Source of the DNA: Saksenaea vasiformis B4078
Lineage: Eukaryota > Mucoromycota > Mucoromycetes > Mucorales > Saksenaeaceae
Direction: 5' to 3'
NCBI GenBank assembly: GCA_000697055.1
Contig: JNDT01001505.1
Coordinates: forward strand, 1 to 30,569
DNA: 30,569 nucleotides
Under the pieces are notes generated by a model. That model was not told where the DNA came from. It did no database searches and was given only the letters and a program-made list of their open reading frames with translations. Numbering within the stretch: the stretch's first letter is position 1; each line of letters starts with the position of its first letter. Below are positions 986-30,569 of the stretch, piece after piece. The position numbers were made by a program, and so were the translations under genes.

Positions 986-3963
986 ATGCAACACAAACGG
1001 AGGCGCCTAAACAAGACCGTTATTCTCTGTTCCGCTTGTGGTCAATACTATGACAGGGCAAATACTAGCGAATTGGAGCATGCATACAGCTGCGGCGAAA
1101 ATCAAGCTACAGAAGAGCTTAGACAAATGCTATCGGCAGATCATAATGCCATTCACGGCTCCAGAATCCCTGTTCTCGCAGCGGAACAACAGGAAACTGC
1201 AAACACAGAAAGCAACAGTGACAGTTCAACAGCGATGGCTCATAGTGATGAAGTTAGAACCAAGAATAACATACTTTACCATGCTAAACTGAATACTCGA
1301 TAGGCTCGTGAACAACTGGAAACATCAAACGATCTCTGCGAACTATGATTACGACTTCGACGAAGACTGGTCTGAAGACACTTTTCGGCCCGAGCAACAT
1401 CACAATGAACAACTTCTTCCTGAAAACGACGTGATAGATACCAGCTTACCAGATAGTATCCAAACCAATAGCCAATCTACACAACCTATAAATGTCTCGT
1501 TCGATTCAGCAATCCCTGAAAAGCCTAACATAGCCACAGCTTTCAGCTTGAGGATGTTCCAACTCGCCAAGGAATACAACGTGCCACGGCAATACTATGA
1601 TGAGCAAGTGAAGCTGATAAACGAGTGGAATGTCTATCAAAACGTCCCAAAAATATTATCACACCATTCATCCAAGGAGGCGTTCACCAAACGATACCCA
1701 GTCAAGGCGACGGCATATGACGCCTGCAAGAATGGCTGCAAGATGTTCACCAAGCAAGACAAAGCAACGACATGCAGCCATTGCGGCGCACCTCGCTATG
1801 TCGAGCTGGATCAAACGAAGGTAGTTGTTCTTACTGTCGAACTCTACTGAAATTACCTGTATGATAAAACCATCCTATATCGTTAAACAACTACCACTCT
1901 CTCAGCAATTAGGCTTACTGCTGACTGACCGAAATACTAGCGAACTGCTGAGGTTCCGTTCCAAACGACAGCCAAATCCAGATGGTGTCTACGAGGACAT
2001 ATTCGATGGTGATGTCTATAAGTCTATGGCGGGAAGGAATATCTTTGGTGACTTGGATATCGCGCTGGGTATGTTTGTTGATGGATTCAGACCCCACGCA
2101 CGTGGGCGCTCGATTATGACGATGGTACTCCTTGTCATCATGAACCTTCCTCCAGAGATCCATTACGAGCTCAACAGAATGATCCAAGTCTGTATCGTCC
2201 CAGGAGAGAAAGCCCCAAAAGATCTGTTCAGCTACCTTGCTCCAATGCTTTCAGAATTGAAGAAAATGCAAAGCGCTGGTTTATATGTTCGACGAGGCAA
2301 TGAGGAGTACCGAGTGAAAGTCCAGTTGATGTTTGCATCTGGAGACATCTCTGGAATTGCAAAGCTGATGCATCATCGTGGACATAATTACAGATATGGT
2401 TGCCGTATCTGCTTGATCAAAGGCACCCGACGCAATCCTGCCCATGAAGATGAAAGCGATGAAGGTAAAAAAAAAATCAGCAACAACGCAATAAAAAAAT
2501 ACTAAATGAAGAAATAGATGCCGAAACGTTGAAAAGCTGCTGCTTTATACCCGACAACCACCGTTACCCGCTCCGATCGAAAGATTATCTGGTGAACGGC
2601 AATGAAGAGCAGGGTATTATGAGCAAGTGCCCATTCAGCGATCTGTACGGATTCAATGGCTCCTTCTTCTTCGGTATGGATGAGATGCATTTGATAGGCC
2701 ATGGTATAGGGAAGCAAACATGGGATCTGATATCAGGGCGATTTGGAAAGGACCATGCTCTCTACCTATCACCTGCCGTCAGACAGGCGATTGGGAAGAA
2801 GATAGCCGAAATCAGATTCCCCCGAGTTTCAACAGCAGCTGGAATAATGTCGAAAATATCTCTGGCCAGTTCAAAGCGGTGGATTGGATCGAGTTCCTCC
2901 TGTATATCGTCCCAACCATTGTCGCAGAACACATCGTGGACAACAGCGCCAGAGCTGCCCTACTGGATTTGGTTAATGCATGCTCTCTTGCTGAGCAATG
3001 GACCTTAAGCACTGCCGAACTAAGGTCCATCGACAACAGTGTAAAATCATGGCTCAGCTACCTCGTTGGACAACCCAAGATCAGTAGATCAGTGTTCACC
3101 GTCACCCAACATTACCTGACGCATATTACTTCGGTGGTGAAGCATCTGGGCCCTCTGCGCGCTATTAGTGCACGTCCAATGGAGAGAGCAATCGGCGAGT
3201 ATTCTAGCCGCATCAAATCCCGTGTTAAGCCAGGAGAAAATGCGGCCAACGTCATGCATGTTCTGTCAGCTTCTCGCCACTTAACGCGGATCTATAGCGA
3301 AGACACGTTGCAGTTCCAGAAAAGCAGCATAGTTCGTGAAAATGACCGCGTTCTGACCGCAACAAACGACGAAGACGACGTGGATGCATCAGAACTATGG
3401 GGCCCCTTTATGATGGATATCAACATTGCAAATATTGGTGGAGATGGATTCCAATTGGACCTGGAACACCTTCTTCGACGATTTTGGTCAATCTTCACCA
3501 GCAAAACGATTGCCATCAGCCCACAATATCAGCCGCAGCACGCTTGTGGAAGTCAACAGGAGAGGTCACAGGATGTCTGATGCTGGCTTCAAGAGGTGCA
3601 AGTAAGGCATCTCACATGGTGAATATGGTGCTGGACGTGGACAGAAACAGTAGAAGAAACCCCCAGATAAGAAGGTCCGCGCGTATATACTTTGGCAAGG
3701 TGTATTTATACTTTAAGCATGTTCATGGTCACCATGCACAGCTGCTTGCTCTTGTCTGTATCTACGACGCCAAACTCACCACATCAGGATTCCCTTATAT
3801 GCAACCTTCAGCTCCTAGCCAGTTCTGTGTCATTCGCGTGGAAGATATTGAGTGCATGACAGGGTGGATATCTGGTAGCTCTGGAAGAACGTATATTGTG
3901 TGGCCGCATATGCGGAAATGCAAAGAAGCGGAATTGGGAAAGCTAGCTGACCTTGATAACTAG
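986..3963 (+). pseudogene. CACTA Tnp2-type transposase, frame-broken
   Basis: Successive plus-strand frames together resemble the transposase of CACTA/En-Spm elements. In order: an N-terminal acidic region with CSACGQYYD; KNGCKMFTKQD followed by CSHCGAPRY (a CxxC pair typical of the Tnp2 N-terminus); KQLPLSQQLGLLL; PDGVYEDIFDG; FVDGFRPHARGRS; RYGCRICLIKG; DEMHLIGHGIGKQ; and a DUF4218-like part (HYLTHITSVVKHLGPLRAIS, then RPMERAIGEYSSRIKSRVKP). A convincing intron lies at 2465-2517 (branch TACTAAATG), and a possible 85-bp one at 1821-1905. Frame breaks remain near 1304, near the C-run at about 2820, and near 3500. The ATG at 986 is the best start. The copy is unlikely to make active protein. 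Confidence 0.7.
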
Positions 3964-4071
3964 TCATGATTTGACCAAAAAAACTTTTTTAGTTCCTTTC
4001 TTTCGTGTTTACTGTCTTTTCCCTTTTTTTCTCCCATTAAATCCTACTTTTTCTTTCAGCTAGTGATCGCT

Positions 4072-5114
4072 ATGGATAATAGCCAAACTTTTTTAAACAT
4101 GATCCCACAAATCTTCTCAAAGGTCGTCCAGATGTGTGATGAGATGACCGAACTAAGAAACACTGTTCAGGAACTAAAGAATGAGGTCCGCGATTTGAAG
4201 GTGCAAGTCGCTGATTTGCAGGTATTTAATATCAGGCATCTTTGTTTTACTTTTTTTTATTACTACTTAGCTGGTTCTCTACATTAATATTTCCACCCGT
4301 ATTACCCTTCTTTCTGATAGCTGCTTAATAGAAAACATCTTCCATGGAAGGAAATACCGAAGCGTCTACTTCCATTGAAGATACCGAAATGGACAATAGC
4401 CTTCGGAACATCCAGCAGCCTAAGGAGGACGATCCAAGCAGCAAGCGCTTTGGTAAAACGAAGCAGTACAGTGTGGAGCTCTTCCAATGGCTGATCAACG
4501 AGACGAAAGGTGAAAGAGAGCCAGAAGTTAGCTTATCAGAGGTGAAGATACGTCTTGCCAACGCTCGTCCTCATGTGATGTCTGTGGTGGCCAGCATCCG
4601 TTCCGACCTGGAGGAGTCCTGCCCCTGGGGAAAAGTGTTGAACGATGCAAAGGCCAAGGCCTACATTCTGCTGGAGCAGAGAGCCATCTCTGCCGGCATT
4701 CCTCTCCACAGATGTATTGGGCAGTGGGGAGCCAGGCTCATCCTCGCTAAGTATTGGAACAACACTGTCGTCCAGCCCGTTGCAGAGCGGCCCAGGACTC
4801 TGCTTCAAATGAGCAAGACGTATTGGAAGATGCAGTACCAGGTGAGTCCGGGCTCTACCCCACTGAGGACGAGCCGTCGGCTGGAAGCGACAAGGAAGGT
4901 GAAAACACGGAAGAACAGCAACAGGCTATTGGTAAGTTATTGTCAGATCGCACTTCATATCATAACGTGGTTTAAAGGCTGCATGCCGCCTCCTCCTGTG
5001 CTGTTGTTGGCACCACCGCCTGTCCTTCCAGCAGAAAAAGCTATCGCTTCTACCTCTGGCCCCAAAAGAGTAGCAAGTGGACGTCAAACCAAGTCCAAGA
5101 GACAAAAGAAATAA
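4072..5114 (+). CDS. Second gene of the CACTA element, coiled-coil accessory protein
   Basis: Exon 1 (4072-4221) starts with ATG at 4072 and encodes a heptad-like coiled coil (MTELRNTVQELKNEVRDLKV) ending DLQ. An intron at 4222-4331 (GTATTT..AATAG) joins in phase to KTSSMEGNTEAS. The next exon encodes a basic domain with YSVELFQWLINETKGE and ISAGIPLHRCIGQWG. Near 4780 the frame shifts to an acidic segment (TEDEPSAGSDKEGENTEE). A GTAAGT intron at 4932-4977 leads to a Pro-rich and Lys/Arg-rich C-terminus (SGRQTKSKRQKK), a plausible nuclear localisation signal. By position it corresponds to the TnpA/TNP1-like protein that binds subterminal repeats; that role is inference. The frame break near 4780 suggests decay or a missed feature. 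Confidence 0.5.
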
Positions 5115-8467: not shown

Positions 8468-9134
8468 ATGGCTCCTACACGAAATATATTTGCTCAATCA
8501 GCGGAGAGTGGTCGTACGGTGACTTACAGCATGGGAGGTCTCAACGAACGGTAATTATTATTACTCTAGTCAACGCATCTTGAATTTACTAATCTATAAT
8601 TGTAGATTCAGCCAGTTGGAAAAGACCCACAAGCCGTCTAATAACCAGACTCAACCACAACAGCGTCAGACAAGTGTTTTCAGTCGTATTAGAGGCGCAA
8701 AGGCTAGCACTAGCAGCTCCGTTGCTGGTCGTAAGCGTACAACTGGTATCCAAGATCGTCTTGGCAAGGTTGCAAGCGGTGGCATAAGGAAGCCAAGAAG
8801 TGGCCGCTCTCCTATGGTGGGTGTAGAACGAACTGGCCCGGCGCGTGAACGACGAGGAGGACCATCGAAAGGTAGAGCTGTAGGAGGAACAAATCAACGT
8901 GGAAATGCAGCTCGTGGAAAGTCTCGCGGAGGTAGTCGTGGTGCTGGCCGAGGGGCGAGTCGTGGCGCAAGTACTGGTGGCCGCGGAGGTGATAAGCCCA
9001 AGAAAGTTACTAGCGAAGACCTCGACAAGGCATTGGACGATTACATGATGAAGGACCCCAAGACAGCACAGTCCAAGTTGGACTTGGAGTTGACCTCGTA
9101 TATGGACGAAGCTGATATGTTGATGGATCTGTGA
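8468..9134 (+). CDS. CHTOP: CHTOP/FoP-like RNA-binding export adaptor
   Basis: Two exons (8468-8550 and 8606-9134) encode 203 aa. The 55-bp intron has GTAATT, branch TTACTAATC and TTGTAG, and joins the conserved motif LNERF (residues 25-29), the N-terminal signature of CHTOP (chromatin target of PRMT1). The middle (about 50-155) is Arg/Gly/Ser-rich with repeated RG dipeptides (SRGGSRGAGRGASRG), as in RGG RNA-binding proteins methylated by PRMT1. The C-terminus matches the FoP duplication domain, with two copies of an LDxxLxxYM-type motif (EDLDKALDDYMMKDP, KLDLELTSYMDEAD). CHTOP family members work in the nucleus with the TREX mRNA-export complex. Length is near the ~250-aa animal protein. The start is the first ATG upstream of the donor. 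Confidence 0.8.
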
Positions 9135-18700: not shown

Positions 18701-19842
18701 AACACATGGTAAAGAACAAATGTTTTGCGAAAGGAATCTCACGCTGTAATAGGCTCATCCATTATTATTGGCAGCGATCAAGGCGTGTTTTTCAAAAAAG
18801 ACCCCGACAGCGATACGCTTGTACGAATTTTGGCTATGGAGAAGGTGTCTCAAATAGATGTCCTCAAACAATCGAGATTAATATTGGTTCTGGCTGACAA
18901 AATACTGTACACTTATTCGTTGGATACATTATTATCGTCAGACCCCAGCAAGCGCGGCAGAAAGATCAGTAGTCATGTCTCCTTTTTCAAGGTGGGTAGT
19001 GTTGTCCACAAAAACGATGACAAATCAGACGAAAAGATGCTTGTCTGCTTTGTACGATATAATGCTATGACATCCACCATACGAGCATTGGAGCCACACG
19101 CTAGCACAGACACAAAGAAAAAGAAAAAGAACGCTTTGGGAATATTCATGCGTAATTCCAGCGAAGGTCTTAAAGTGTATAAAGATCTGTATATTCCTGG
19201 AGAAGCGACATCAATTCAGTATTTCAAGAATATCATCTGTGTAGGAAGTGCCAAGGGATTCCAAATGGTGAATATTGCGACAACTGAAGTTCAAAGTATA
19301 TTCTGGTGGAAAAATACGTCGTAAGGAAACTGACCCTATTGCCCTAGGTGTCCTGGACCCCAACGACCAAAATCACCTGGCAATACTACAGCGTGAAAGC
19401 TTGAAACCCATATCAATGTACCGACACCCGGATGGAAGTATCTTACTATGTTACAATGGTAAAAAGGCATCATGCGATGTCTATTTCACTTACAAAGCTT
19501 CTTGGTAGAAATGGCATTCTATATTGACAAGAAGGGCAGGCGGGAGAAAAACGGCTGGATGATATCATGGGAAGGGACACCCAATTCATTTGCATTCCGC
19601 TACCCCTACATTGTTGCATTCAATCCTACGTTTATTGAGATACGTCACATGGACACTGTGAGTAAAGGCAAACTTACCTGCCAAAAACTGACGGTTGATT
19701 ACAGGGTGACCTTGTACAAGTCGTACCCGGTCAAAATATTCGTTGCTTAAAACCAGATCCAGTTGATTCAATCCACTGTGTTATGGAAGATCGTGCAAGC
19801 GGTCATGAACTTATCTTCGAACTCAAGTTCCTCGAACAATAA
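15783..19842 (+). CDS. ROM2: Rho1 guanine-nucleotide exchange factor, Rom2-like (DEP-DH-PH-CNH)
   Basis: Thirteen exons encode 1160 aa: 15783-16350, 16403-16692, 16739-17104, 17168-17236, 17288-17431, 17479-17772, 17821-18090, 18140-18316, 18360-18708, 18753-19288, 19326-19458, 19509-19657, 19705-19842. All phases agree. The N-terminal ~240 residues are Ser-rich and low complexity. A DEP domain (about 250-335) has SKVAAAFKDRITLRTKVKDS and AILLGRALEAQKFFHDVNYE. The DH domain (about 458-650) has ENIFELCYTESDFVGDLAYL and TERLPQSRKLELNGFLTKPT. PH is about 675-807 and CNH about 830-1150 (YIPGEATSIQYFKNIICVGS, KNGWMISWEGTPNSFAFRYP). Rom1/Rom2 proteins load GTP onto Rho1 at the plasma membrane to drive cell-wall integrity signalling and glucan synthesis. 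Introns are 37-63 bp; the 37-bp one (19289-19325, GTTCAA donor) is the least certain. Confidence 0.93.
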
Positions 19843-23362: not shown

Positions 23363-25164
23363 TTACAAAAACTGACGACGGTGCAGAAAGCTAATGAGAT
23401 CGTATTTGGTTGCAACACCAAGACACCATTTTCGCTGAGCGTCCGTAATCAAGGCAAACGAATTCTTTTCAAAGAATTTAGCTGTTGTAAACAAACAGAA
23501 AAGTGAGAAAAAGACACAAATATTTGCCTTTTCCGATTACCCAAATCTGCTAAGCTTGTATCAGGCGTAATAGTCTGGTATTCTTGATGCGAGCCGCCTT
23601 TTCGGAAAGTGAACATACAGGTTTCCACAGGATCGTTCAGTCGCACTGTGCCTTGGTCCAATCGAGCTTGTAATGCAGCCAGCGAGACGTACCCCACCAA
23701 CTTCTTGTTGGATGTACGGATCACAGGTAGCTGAGAATATTCACGTTCCAACATAACATCTAAAGCATACGAGACAGTGCTCGAAGGCGCGATCGTTACT
23801 GCTGCAGGAAGTTGTAAATCTTCAACACTGGCCTAATAGAAAGATGTCAGCGCAGCTATTAACGTAAGCAGGACAGCTTACCGCACGGTACCGATCGTGC
23901 GAGAGATACTCTAGTTCTCGTGTAATAATGTCATCCGCCAGATCGTTCTCAAATAGCCAGTCATCAGAAAGCAAAGTAGATGTATAGTTTCGTGCTGTAT
24001 CACTCAGGATCACAACTGATCTGTACTCACGATCAGTGGACGGATGCGATACACTTTCAGCATGACGCATAGCTGCGGCAACAACGGCACCGCTGGAGGG
24101 ACCTGCTCATAGTGCATAAGAAAGAACCAATAAAGCGGAGAATCCACTTACCACACAAAATACCTTGGTCTCGGATCAATCGCCGAGCCATTGAGAATGC
24201 CTCTTTATCCTGAACTTTAACCCATTCATCGACGGTATTCTTTGCCAAGGATGGGGGCACAAATGTATTACCCAGATCTTCGATCTTCCAATCCTATAAA
24301 TACAAAGGATTAATTTTTTTTTCCTTAGCCTTTGTTCATTCTCTCGTACCGCGCGACTATTTGCAGGATGAGCAGGTTCACTCAGAACAGATTCGCTGGG
24401 CTCCACACCAACAACCTATCTAACAGTGAGCCAACCTTCTGACGTCTTTTTCTCTTGACCTTAACGTTCGGCATTCGCTGCTTAAGATAGGTTGCTAAAC
24501 CACTGATGGTAGCACCTGATTCAACGCCCACGAAGAGGTAGTCAAATGTCATCTTCGTCTGTTGCAAGAGCTCTTCCGCCAAGCCGTCGTATGCATTTTT
24601 ATGAATTTTTGTCTCATCCATCACCACTGCGTCCGGCATCTGCTCAGCTAAGCGAGCTGCCACAGAGTACGTGCTTTCTGGTGCCTCAGGTCGCGCTTCA
24701 TTAGGCGACCGTAATATCTCAGCTCCAAGTGCCTTAAGCAGCAGGATACGATCATTTGAAGTCCGTTCTGGCACGATGGCAATCACCCTGTATTTTCGTT
24801 TTGCTGCCAATGTGGCAAGCGAAATACCAAGGTTACCAGTAGTGGGAATAATTAAGGTACGTTTCTTGTTCTCTGTTGAGCTTCTTTGCTCATAATCTAT
24901 CGCTAAAGTCAATAACAACAGCATAAATGACATGCAGTCCTTTGTTTCACCATCCAAAAGGTATTTTGCCGCTCTATCTTTGCCACTTCCTGTCGGATTG
25001 GTAAACTCAAGCTTAGCAAGCAATTCCACTATGTTTTGACTTTAGTTAGATGCTAGGACCTTTCTAATCATGAACTCGCCTTTGTTATGACACCCAATGT
25101 TGACCATGGGCGTTAGGCCTATGCCGTCAGCGATGCGATCAGTGATGGCAGGTGGTTCAAGCAT
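23363..25164 (-). CDS. Divergent cystathionine beta-synthase-like protein
   Basis: Eight exons on the minus strand (25092-25164, 24951-25028, 24460-24902, 24350-24415, 24152-24293, 23882-24102, 23541-23832, 23363-23481) encode 477 aa in consistent phase; introns are 44-63 bp. It aligns with CBS through ELLAKLEF, GSGKDR (the PLP lysine in the SxKDR-type motif), LGAEILRSPNEARPEAPEST, NTVDEWVKVQDKEAFSMARR, GILCGGPSSG and VVILSDTARNYTSTLLSDDW, and ends with CBS-domain motifs (YSQLPVIRTSNKKLVGYVSL, WCLGVATKYDLISFL). There is no haem domain, as in yeast. Odd points: TSGNTG is TTGNLG, the GTGGT phosphate loop is ESGAT, and the NPxxHY segment is replaced by DETKIHKNAYDG. It is likely PLP-fold but changed in substrate or inactive. 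The first exon join is the least certain, leaving a shorter N-terminus than usual. Confidence 0.8.
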
Positions 25165-26424: not shown

Positions 26425-26620
26425 GACTGGCGATCTGTTTCAAGTGAAAGGGAGGATTTTTTCACCACCGAAGCCCAGTTATTTAGAGTTTTTTGTACGT
26501 GACTTTGCGCCGCTTGGATAGAAGTTTTGCGCTGACCAATAGACCAAGTCTGCGTTGGCTGGGAATCAATGTCAAGGGACATTTTGCATTATAGAAACTC
26601 CGCTGACGTTGTGTGATTAC

Positions 26621-27648
26621 ATGGAAGCTGAATATGCTTCGTTAGATATAGATGATGTTACTTTGTTTGAGGATGATGAACCGAATGAACAGGTTAAATT
26701 GCCTCATTTATGCGCAGCTATTTTGGGCGAAGACTGGCGGGAAAGTAGTAGTCATGTGAATAAAGCCTTTGTGCGTATGCGCACATTGGCAGATTCTGGA
26801 TCATCTGCTGAGGATGCTGGAGAGAAACGTTTAACAGGCATTGTTCCCTTTCCAAGCAGACCACGCACACAAGAAAAGCGTGAAGAGTCGAGTAAAGCTA
26901 GAGCAAGAGGATCATACAGAAGATATACTGTGCAGCAAATAGAGAAGCTGTTTGATTTAGCGATTGAAGAAGGACGAATGGCAAAGAAAGCAGGGCTGAT
27001 TACGGGTATAAAAGTCCGAACTGCTCAACATTATATCAAATCATACAATCGGGATGAAGAAAGACGTCTCCCTGATATTCAGAGAAAGCCTTGTGCGACG
27101 TGTCCTTTTTTTGTTCGTGCTGGAGCTTACCACCCAGAGGAAATACATTAGGCCTTCTGGTAAGCTGACTGAAGCTCACTCCCACTTTCTGGTAGACTAG
27201 TTTGCATAATAACGTGACTTCTATCCTGATTGGTATAAGGAGAAGGCTTTGTGAAGCTTTGCATAGACATCTGGTTAATTAATAAATGCGCTATAACTTT
27301 CAAAAAGTTGTAAAAGCTTCCTGCAGCAAGGAATTCTGATCGAGTCTTAGCATTACCGAAAAACGATACAAGAACCGAGTTTCATTAAAAATAATGTTTC
27401 TGTTGACGAAGCTGTATCTATCTTCATATACAAAGAAGGACTGCTATCGACAAGGAAAGCATGCTACTTTCATTATTAGATTGCAAGGTGTGGATCGGCG
27501 TGGTGCCGTATTCATTGCTGCTGTCTACAGTACGAGCAGGTCCAAAAATTGAAGTAGATAATTCTGAGCGTGAGATAAAGGGAAGGCCAAGATTTGGAGT
27601 GTATAGCAATTTAACTATGAAGGTCAATGACAGCTACAAAGGTCAGTA
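26621..27648 (+). pseudogene. Decayed IS630/Tc1-mariner-type transposase
   Basis: The ATG at 26621 opens 176 codons: an acidic N-terminus, then a helix-turn-helix segment (YTVQQIEKLFDLAIEEGRMA, KKAGLITGIKVRTAQHYIKS) typical of fungal IS630/Tc1-like transposases. After a frameshift near 27140 the match resumes with GKLTEAHSHFLVD (27156-27197), then NNVTSILIGIRRRLCEALHR in a third frame, and near 27394 NNVSVDEA, which resembles the first catalytic Asp strand (VDEAG) of the DDE domain. Stops and shifts persist to about 27650. Family assignment of the 3' part is from remembered motifs only. It directly precedes the Fanzor-like gene. Confidence 0.5.
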
Positions 27649-27844: not shown

Positions 27845-30220
27845 ATGGAGCTTACCTTGACTGAAGTTATCCACATAGCACTCTGGTTAATCGTTCGCGT
27901 GATTAACTTGTCGGTGCGCTCCTTGATCACCCATAAAAAACATTTGCGAATTTTGAAATTAAAAGCAGAAAAAGAAGAGAGAACAAAAAGTACCTTTCAC
28001 ATTGATAGCGAGCTTAATCTTTCTGAACATCTCGATCTTAGTTGTCTGTAAGGACTGCAGCGACCTTGGGCATCCGAATAAGAGATACAAGGTGTGCCCA
28101 AAAAATGCCAACTACGGAAGGATAACTGGTGATCATATTTAAAAGACTTCCTTTTGCTAAATAACAAACCTATAGTCGGTACGAAAAGGAAGTTGACCAT
28201 CGAAGAACAAGCTGAATCACCCAAAGCAAAGAAACGGGGAAGGAACGCGAAAGCGTCCGCAAGTGCGAATGAAAGTTTGCCTCCACCGTCTTGCCCTGCC
28301 TGCGGCTCCAACAAGCATCGAAGTTCAAGGGCTTCGCAGTGCCCGAAGCATAAATTGACGATGAAACAGGTAGTTTATGAAAAGTTGGGAAAAGACCACG
28401 AAAGGTTTACTAGGAAATTACCGTTTGACAAGATCGTTCGTCATACATACCAACACGTACTCCACGAAAAGGTTACAAGGTTATGTAATCTGTCCAGAAA
28501 TGTGATAATACGGGCACAGTTGTTCGTCAACTGGTATATCATCAAGCATGCTCGTGAAGGGATCGCTCCGTACCTCTTTACACAAAATTTTTGGTATTCC
28601 ATATGTCAACTAGTCCTTGGGAAGGAGATTACCAGCACTAATCACAAGCTGCCGAGCGATATTGTACAAAATTGGGGAACAATTTGTACCAACCACCCAA
28701 ACAGTCTATACCTGTTAGCGCGGCAGGAACGCTGCAGCGACATACTTTCTGCCGCATGTGTGACGCTTGCCACAGCGTACTCGAACCATGTCGTCGAGAC
28801 ATTTGACAATCGAATATTCTTTTATGCCGTCTATCAATTGAGATTCCTTTTACCTGTACGTGCTCCACTTGTGCTATCATTTTACTCACAGCGTAATAGA
28901 ACCGTAGCCATAAGTTAGCAAAAGAAATTTCCAATGACTATATCTTTGAACGGATTGCCGGAGGTGAACCTCGTTGGCCTCATTCTATTTCCGAGCGTGT
29001 TCCTGGCGAGATCAAAACAGCGGTCGAAGCCGTATGCCAGGAGTTGGAAGAGATAGTCCCAAAACCAGCAACTAAAGAAGCGATATCTGCTTCTCCCGGG
29101 AAGTACATACCAGCTTTACGGCAAATTCTGGAACTGTATGATAACATGCATCTGCAAGCGACCAAGTCTATGCAGTCGAAGGATTTACCACGTCTTTTTG
29201 GCCTGACATCAAGCGAATCGTTCCAGTGGCGCTTTATTACCATCGATGCCAAAACTCTCAGCAGCCTTGTATCTCGCAAGGCTGGGACCACTCACGAGGA
29301 TCATTTGAAACTGTTCTACGACGTTCTAGATTTCTACAGATTACGGTTTCAAAGGTAACGCTTATGTAAAGAAATATCGCTGATTTTTTTCACGTAGCAT
29401 CGAATCCCTCCAAAATTCCGAAAGACACATGTTCACTAATTAAATATTGACTGACGGTTTCGCGGTTGACTTGCAGTTCGCTAGGGCAAAAAACGTTTCC
29501 AGGGTGCAGCACACGGAGCTTTCTGTCGACGATTTCACGCAAACAGAGATCCAAAAACATTTCCTTCCGTGTGCTATTGATCCAGGGGTCAGCCAGGTGT
29601 TTACCGCATCATACGGCGAGGGAACGAACTCTCATGAAATCCGTCGTTGTTCGACCGCAGAGTATTATACATATACCGGAGCATTTCGACGTCAACGGGC
29701 GATGGATGCAGCAAAGAAGACCGCTCGCATCAAAGACATTGAAACGGAGATGCCTACGGGGAAGACACAGCTTGAAGAACGCTACAATGACCATATCCGT
29801 TATGTATACCAGCATTTGGAGCAGCTTTTTGGGTTTTACGGTCCATCGACAGGAGAGAGCCGATTCAGAAACTATCAGGGCAGGCAGAGAGCCATGGAAG
29901 AAATGGTGAACATACTCGTCGATGGAGGAAAAAAATATAATCGGCGAAAAAGAAAGAAGACAAAAGCGAATCGTAAGGAACGCAAGCGAAGGCGCAAAAA
30001 AAAGAGGAGAAAGCCGGTCTTGGAGGTCGAAAAGTATGATGGAAGCTGTAAATGTATGAAAACTAATGGAATTCATAGGGGAAGAGTTCCAGCGCAGGTC
30101 ATGTCAAAAGACAGGTCTACTCTACGCCCAGGCCGTCACCCCAAAAAATGGAAGCAAATACCATTCCAGGAGATGAGAAAAATGCCTCTCATCGTTTTCG
30201 GGGATGCGATGTTTGCCAAT
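27845..30220 (+). pseudogene. Fanzor-like (eukaryotic TnpB) RNA-guided nuclease gene, interrupted
   Basis: Five segments join in phase: 27845-27989, 28042-28128, 28176-28859, 28919-29354, 29398-30220 (725 codons to the break). The N-terminus has a basic helix and two zinc knuckles with the same CX2CX4HX7C spacing (CKDCSDLGHPNKRYKVC; CPACGSNKHRSSRASQC). A helical middle follows (AYSNHVVETFDNRIFFYAVY), then LTDGFAVDLQFARAKN, the RuvC-I strand with its Asp (CAIDPGVSQVFTASYG; Asp codon 29579-29581), a Lys/Arg-rich linker and MPLIVFGDAMF. These match the TnpB-type nucleases of mucoralean fungi as I remember them. A TAA at 29441-29443 is in frame, and no splice choice removes it. The later RuvC motifs and zinc ribbon are absent: the frame is lost at a TA where a Tc1-like element seems to begin. 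Fanzors use a guide RNA to cut DNA and usually ride on transposons. The 59-bp intron at 28860-28918 is the weakest join. Confidence 0.6.
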
Positions 30221-30221
30221 A

Positions 30222-30569
30222 CACTCCAGACTGAAAAGTGTTCGTACGTTTGTGTAAACTCCGCAAATACTGGTTTGCTGTCATCGCATATGTACCTCAT
30301 ATCTCCCAGATAAACCATATTTAATACCCTGAAAGCACTATAAACATGTAGTATGACATGAAATCAGGATTTACTTTTATTTTTGCGTCATTTTAATAAC
30401 GTGTATGACCACCGAGGGCTTTAATGACAGCCTCACATCTGCGGGTCATTGAGGCTACTAAGCTTTCGCAAACGCTTTGCGGAATGGCTTGCCATTCTTC
30501 CAACAGAGCGGCTTGCAACTGCTCTGGTTTATGAATTAGGTGTCTCCGCTTTGCCAGTCGGCGCTCCAG
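30222..30569 (-). mobile_element. Tc1-like transposon, 3' part, running off the right edge
   Basis: After a TA at 30220-30221 the sequence begins CACTCCAGACTGAAAAGTGT, a Tc1-like terminal sequence. The transposase stop on the minus strand is about 170 bp inward, the expected spacing. The other end is outside the window, so the boundary is inferred from the loss of the Fanzor frame plus the TA. Confidence 0.5.
30393..30569 (-). CDS. Tc1-like transposase, C-terminal 58 residues
   Basis: The minus-strand frame is open from the window edge to TAA at 30393-30395. It reads EQLQAALLEEWQAIPQSVCE, then SLVASMTRRCEAVIKALGGH and TRY at the stop. This is the conserved Tc1 ending (EEW..IP....L..SM..R...VI...GG.T.Y) that follows the third catalytic residue of the DDE domain. 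The catalytic part lies beyond the window. No break is seen in the visible part, suggesting a younger element than its neighbours. Confidence 0.85.
   Translation of the reverse strand: MERRLAKRRHLIHKPEQLQAALLEEWQAIPQSVCESLVASMTRRCEAVIKALGGHTRY

Follow-up and report, generated by a model that had tools for sequence, protein, structure and literature searches.

The window analyzed here is the whole stretch of DNA under study, i.e., the entire contig JNDT01001505.1 of Saksenaea vasiformis B4078 (C251, 30,569 nucleotides). Its right-hand part holds an apparent Fanzor1-type gene, with a transposase remnant upstream and a Tc1-like insert within which the contig ends. Three host-type genes were also recognized (Table 1). 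What looks like the terminal part of a gene for ribosomal protein L39 (25830–26060, minus strand, named by eye) lies just outside the element that carries the gene, and overlapping open frames at 1293–5114 (plus strand) resemble a further decayed transposase, one piece of which gave a weak DUF4218 match (0.0018, below the cutoff). The gene family, its lesions, the ends of the carrying element and an RNA-like island with covariation could be documented directly, and the locus very probably represents a Fanzor1 gene that was disabled recently and sits in a TA-inserting element of Tc1/IS630 type, the transposase of which has decayed.

Table 1. Features located in the window, with the basis of each assignment.
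Feature	Position	Strand	Basis or remarks
Host-type gene, FoP_duplication	8523–9134	+	1.1e-17
Host-type gene, CNH domain	18713–19324	+	5.4e-28
Host-type gene, PALP enzyme	24382–25041	-	1.4e-35
Left-end TA of the Fanzor-carrying element; the base before it is T (TTA)	26484–26485		End of homology; left-end alignment by eye
Left terminal sequence GAGTTTTTTGTACGTGACTTTGCGCC..	26486–26560	+	Counterpart of the right-end inverted repeat
DDE_3-type transposase remnant, N-terminal part	26621–27151	+	Own-genome matches; open relative
Pyrimidine-rich stretch 5' of the start codon	27771–27844	+	Seen in the sequence; counterpart before the ATG of L015
Exon 1	27845–27989	+	L009 alignment
Intron 1	27990–28041	+	L009 alignment; 6-bp loss at the donor relative to L009
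Exon 2	28042–28128	+	L009 alignment; zinc-knuckle-like motif 1 (28047–28100)
Exon 3	28176–28855	+	L009 alignment; zinc-knuckle-like motif 2 (28292–28345)
Exon 4	28915–29354	+	L009 alignment; acceptor picked by frame
Exon 5, truncated by insertion	29398–30220	+	L009 alignment; profile match to Spizellomyces Fanzor1
In-frame nonsense codon TAA	29441–29443	+	Sequence; Gln in L009
RuvC-I motif AIDPG	29573–29587	+	Exon 5; Asp codon 29579–29581
IVFGDAM	30191–30211	+	Exon 5
TA insertion target of the Tc1-like element	30220–30221		End of homology to other copies
Tc1-like element, truncated by the contig end	30222–30569	-	Identity to the C514 and C405 copies
End of transposase-like frame in the Tc1-like element	30569–30393	-	Named by eye

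Exon borders of the window copy were set by alignment with L009, an uninterrupted paralogue that is open across six predicted exons and encodes 844 aa. In this pairwise alignment 2217 of the 2377 aligned positions were identical, and the only three gaps (6, 1, and 2 bp) were intronic, with none inside exons. The alignment bears out the five in-phase exons running from the ATG that a preliminary description, made from the sequence alone, had proposed; the pyrimidine-rich tract upstream of the start codon, the AIDPG RuvC-I motif, the VFGDA strand and the single in-frame stop that it listed are likewise all present. Its twin zinc knuckles can be kept as two motifs, but not as textbook knuckles, as both are spaced CX2CX4HX7C and the textbook form is CX2CX4HX4C. 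The repeated unit starts further upstream than the described stretch, near 26486 instead of at 27845, as judged by homology among copies. Within the same genome at least 136 matches to window positions 29444–30310 were found (the window itself included, 29–98% identical), a lower bound given that 135 of 340 candidates were scored, and the gene pattern is therefore more than a product of chance.

The interrupted C-terminus that had been described is explained by the Tc1-like element, which sits at a TA and breaks exon 5. Among the copies listed, 11 align as far as 30221 and one as far as 30219, while the alignments of the remaining ones end earlier or lie elsewhere. The insert is identical to copies of the same element on C514 (349/349 bases) and C405 (305/305 bases), and from two matches on C504 the complete element can be put at about 1.35 kb, flanked by inverted repeats of 49 bp. 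With a single nonsense codon, exons free of gaps relative to L009 and an insert that has not diverged from its C514 copy, the gene deserves the label "recently disabled" that it had been given; the window copy is no longer able to make a whole protein. The start of contig C610 carries the opposite end of a Tc1-like element, then a TA, and then the continuation of the gene. Among the copies compared, L012 resembles this half most (96.9%) and also ranks with the nearest matches of the window half (95.5%), and C251 and C610 are most likely a single copy that was divided by the assembly.

The assignment to Fanzor, also put forward in the preliminary description, holds, through paralogues that share about 90% identity with the window copy: a zinc ribbon profile above its cutoff, two separate Fanzor1 matches in the PDB and published motif spacings all point the same way. 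The description had suggested profile searches with the translated pieces; those of the window, searched directly against family profiles and the PDB, gave nothing above cutoff, whereas the paralogues matched Cas12f1-like_TNB. The window copy ends before the C4 zinc ribbon (OrfB_Zn_ribbon/Cas12f1-like_TNB, PF07282), and L009 supplies the missing end, consisting of this ribbon and RuvC-III, with a Pfam Cas12f1-like_TNB match of 1.8e-7. The corresponding exons of L015 and L016 were also above this cutoff; neither was accepted as an intact copy, as each has an apparent frameshift in exon 4. The C610 half contains CxxC..CxxC and scored, as a piece, 18.1 bits against a cutoff of 26.3. The best PDB match of L009 was Guillardia theta Fanzor1 (1.5e-4, spanning the zinc ribbon), and a profile headed by exon 5 of the window (7 rows) matched Spizellomyces Fanzor1 (0.001), followed by a histone at 0.31. 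This second match is modest and covers a different stretch, outside the RuvC motifs. In these sequence searches, PDB matches below 0.3 for L009 and for the exon 5 profile were to Fanzor1 proteins only, and PpFz1 of Parasitella was absent from the PDB sequence-search matches. Folded without an alignment, the exon 5 piece gave a poor model (pLDDT 46.8, pTM 0.24).

The Fanzor1 motif available from Bao and Jurka 2013 (PMC3627910) is D-X(125,275)-[TS][TS]-xx-C4-X(5,50)-RD. L009 has D512, a gap of 250, SS763, C4, X5 and RD, and the window copy retains just the first D. For the further conserved G500 and E536 between RuvC-I and the ribbon (spacing 36, from the available part of PMC3627910), the putative counterparts in L009 are GDAMF at 719 and the Glu of DEY at 760, with a spacing of 41. 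Of the 41 sequences scanned (40 loci plus the window), 28 have a C4 ribbon with D[VILM]N[AGS] after it. On these sequence comparisons, a broken Fanzor1-type gene is supported, with a protein that would belong to an already known family.

The gene's carrier looks like a Tc1/IS630-type element, judged by its ends and its transposase. A TA was present at the left ends and right ends that were read, except for the right ends of L027 and L024, which lack a readable one, and the inverted repeats are short and imperfect. The transposase remnant had 148 matches among those listed in its own genome. The window piece itself gave no Pfam match above cutoff; an open 466-aa relative (L050, 60% identical to the remnant) matched Pfam DDE_3 at 1e-25. 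That the nuclease gene is instead an unrelated DDE transposase or another transposon gene, as its position beside the remnant and the lack of family matches for the window pieces by themselves might suggest, is highly improbable, since the DDE_3 match belongs to a relative of the separate upstream gene, the DDE_3 profile matched neither the nuclease gene pieces nor L009, and the TNB zinc ribbon and RDxNA, like the two PDB matches, lead to Fanzor1. A Fanzor gene inside a Tc1/IS630-type element is a pairing already published, according to the accessible text of PMC3627910.

The base preceding the left TA was C or T in all 15 left ends counted by eye (C 9, T 6; L016, L034, and L036 left out as unreadable, L009 unsure), compared with a background of 46.7% for C or T before the 1906 TA cases across the window. 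The base following the right TA varied (C 9, A 8, T 3, G 2) in 22 right ends, which were chosen by eye for a GTA ending. Because the bias lies on the left side of the TA only, we infer 5'-YTA as a candidate target-adjacent motif, drawn from a small sample in which many copies come from one subfamily. Two right-terminal types occur within one subfamily (L009, L011, and L017 vs. L010, L012, L013, L025, and L026); their last ~40 bases differ although the remainder agrees at > 90%, a pattern resembling a swap of ends.

Directly 3' of the zinc ribbon, the paralogues contain an RNA-like island with covarying hairpins. The arrangement ATC..SL1..SL2..GATTTAGAT..TTACG was retained in 25 of the 26 regions scanned (the exception being L048), also where the frame had already stopped (L022, L040, and L045). 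Covariation was assessed on 23 distinct sequences (30 pattern matches minus repeats), with a structure drawn from these same sequences, which biases the test in its favour. Paired cells amounted to 91.2% (79.7 ± 1.4 in shuffles), cells changed on both sides to 34 (11.1 ± 3.0), and the covariation score to 0.396 (0.182), values that none of 500 shuffles reached. The other two of the five measures were unremarkable: 94 of 500 shuffles reached the number of pairs with a both-side change, and 480 of 500 that of further pair types. When the structure was slid, pairing amounted to 33–58%. A search of the window against Rfam gave no match at gathering scores. A duplex between the loop of SL1 and the beginning of segment E2 was considered as well and found unsupported (own duplexes −11.3 on average, crossed ones −10.56 ± 3.58).

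Within the genome, one island pattern located 57 places and a second one 13 (70 in total), while the same patterns read backwards located none. In 52 of the 70, a listed Fanzor exon match in the same orientation precedes the island by 341–785 bp; among the other 18, seven are less than 500 bases from a contig start and one is the C610 half of the window copy. Ten islands, on contigs C9, C198, C309, C317, C354, C370, C443, C464, C599, and C651, have neither a listed Fanzor exon nearby nor a contig start within 500 bases, and could mark genes that have diverged or been truncated, or else be guide-RNA-like copies standing alone. When the right end of L009 was used for a DNA search, 31 places matched, the distant ones over just the first ~50 bases (the island) or the last 50 (the inverted repeat).

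The best candidate for the function of the island is the scaffold of a guide (omega) RNA, which we regard as probable. The preliminary description had expected any guide RNA to come from a place close to the gene's 3' end, past the interruption, and the covarying island of the paralogues and of C610, as a putative scaffold, lends support to this location. The island follows the gene and reaches to the right end, an arrangement shared with the studied Fanzor1 systems in the available text of PMC10711439 and PMC10432273. An unlikely alternative is that the island acts as a structured 3' UTR, or at the DNA level in the transposon end (for example as transposase binding sites or a processing signal): the long hairpin SL4 takes in sections of the right inverted repeat, and its pairing could therefore belong to the DNA end, and the distance from the island to the right end exceeds the reach of known scaffolds (75–150 nt in the accessible part of PMC11423790, compared with an L009 island that starts ~340 nt before the right end), but SL1 and SL2 covary and lie beyond the inverted repeat, and the survival of the island after a frame stop also speaks against it.

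In several subfamilies, two intron-like GT..AG segments, I1 and I3, interrupt the hairpins between the start of the island and the right end. The end of the island, UUACG, can pair with a downstream CGGUAA to form SL3. By eye, the two arms are close together in L040, L043, L045, L042, L044, and L041, and they are separated by I1 in L009, L016, L020, L024, L046, L038, and L030. The predicted joined form has ..TTACG upstream and GTGTATTCA.. downstream. I1 (49–59 nt) has GTNNG..AG ends in 7/7 subfamily representatives and I3 (49–62 nt) in 6/6 (L009, L016, L020, L024, L038, and L044), where donors and acceptors were fixed by eye or by a pattern demanding them and the subfamilies share ancestry. 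Immediately past the island, six bases conform to GT[AT][ACT]G[TC] in 25/25 cases, the groups with contiguous arms included, and the pattern itself required only G[TA] there. In a scan of possible SL3 junctions the true one ranked 3/136, 14/136, 4/132, 10/124, 2/130, 67/143, and 8/75, a moderate and uneven outcome. A segment of ~28 nt after a 12-nt micro-exon-like piece was tried as an additional intron and rejected as too short, and this reading was also dropped because its GGTAAG is the 3' arm of SL3.

I3 sits in the loop of SL4, the arms of which vary from one subfamily to another but fit each other inside any one of them. Own duplexes averaged −30.9 kcal/mol, compared with −17.7 ± 5.5 for crossed ones, and none of the 5040 reassignments of the seven arms was better, although one crossed pair (the L020 arm with L024) reached −31.6. 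SL4 occurs without I3 in L046 and, by eye, in L037. The island exceeded shuffles in identity by +0.19 and the start of E2 by +0.13; E2 and E3 each gave +0.05, I1 +0.04, and I3 0.00, in a comparison that counted L044 under I1 (its SL3 is contiguous, and it is left out of the I1 count above). Conservation thus sets the island off clearly, and E2 and E3 weakly.

Whether I1 and I3 are spliceosomal introns, with the scaffold being spliced, appears to us an evenly balanced question. Such splicing would be in line with their shared GTNNG..AG ends, with lengths near those of the coding introns of L009 (45–59 nt) and with interiors near shuffled identity, and removal of both segments would bring the scaffold nearer to the 75–150 nt of known Fanzor1 scaffolds, as far as the available text of PMC11423790 describes them. 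It is conceivable, at somewhat less than even chances, that the island is a scaffold in which I1 and I3 are expansion loops retained in the RNA. SL4 can fold with I3 left in place, E2 and E3 are barely better conserved than I1, the ranks of the junction scan spread from 2 to 67 and the acceptors were picked by eye, all of which suits retained loops; the recurrent intron-like ends, the intron-like lengths and the poorly conserved interiors do not. If spliced, the scaffold may be split, a reading that we put forward tentatively: the gene end would bear SL1 and SL2 together with the 5' arm of SL3, spliceosomal introns of ~49–62 nt would break up SL3 and occupy the SL4 loop, and splicing would join the inverted repeat and the guide to the scaffold.

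By analogy with the studied Fanzor1 proteins, an intact copy would produce a RuvC nuclease of ~844 aa guided by an omega RNA. The scaffold of this RNA would start at the 3' end of the gene (SL1–SL3) and extend to the right inverted repeat (SL4), and the transcript would continue through the right TA into the host flank, which would serve as the guide. The resulting ribonucleoprotein might cut an empty site beside 5'-YTA, and repair copied from the filled site would then keep the element in place. A comparable design is that of the SfAV Fanzor1 reRNA (Yoon et al. 2023, PMC10711439), where the inverted repeat and the target duplication are part of the predicted scaffold; the accessible text mentions no intron there, unlike the intron-like segments seen here.

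Fanzor1 genes have been recorded in Mariner and other transposons, with 10 families in Mucor circinelloides, 4 in Rhizopus oryzae and 3 in Phycomyces blakesleeanus in the available text of PMC3627910. The genes described there resemble the present one in their motif, in the capture by TA-inserting Mariner-type elements and in being multi-exon fungal genes, whereas the fungal elements named in that text are MuDr-type with 9-bp duplications and the one described here inserts at TA. SpuFz1 and GtFz1, the best PDB matches here, have in common with it the TNB ribbon, RuvC-III and an omega RNA on the 3' side (PMC10432273, PMC11423790, as far as accessible). In the same two sources, the target-adjacent motifs of the set SpuFz1, GtFz1, and PpFz1 are CATA, TTAA(N), and ATN, compared with the candidate YTA here, and no intron-like segments were found in the accessible descriptions of these three. 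Covarying scaffolds with intron-like interruptions were not found in the Fanzor and TnpB literature searched, which lies mostly outside subscription papers, preprints and supplements; among the papers listed on Fanzor and splicing, none dealt with a spliced guide RNA, going by titles and opening lines of abstracts. Splicing and guide RNAs also meet in another setting. In bacterial IStrons the guide RNA of TnpB overlaps a group I intron, so that, as may be the case here, the two come together at a transposon end; IStrons rely on group I self-splicing at the element ends and the segments described here are GT..AG sequences inside scaffold hairpins.

The locus is a fresh Fanzor fossil in a genome where its relatives are abundant, which allows decayed and uninterrupted copies to be compared. 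The RNA-like island with covariation was newly observed here, and the paralogues that carry it yield, for a Fanzor1 family, a testable model of the guide RNA as well as a candidate target-adjacent motif. Should the introns prove real, the spliceosome can build guide RNAs of eukaryotic nucleases, and the search for omega RNAs would have to change. If the split scaffold is true as well, the ribonucleoprotein would form solely where the host spliceosome acts, and the maturation of the guide RNA would be tied to the nucleus.
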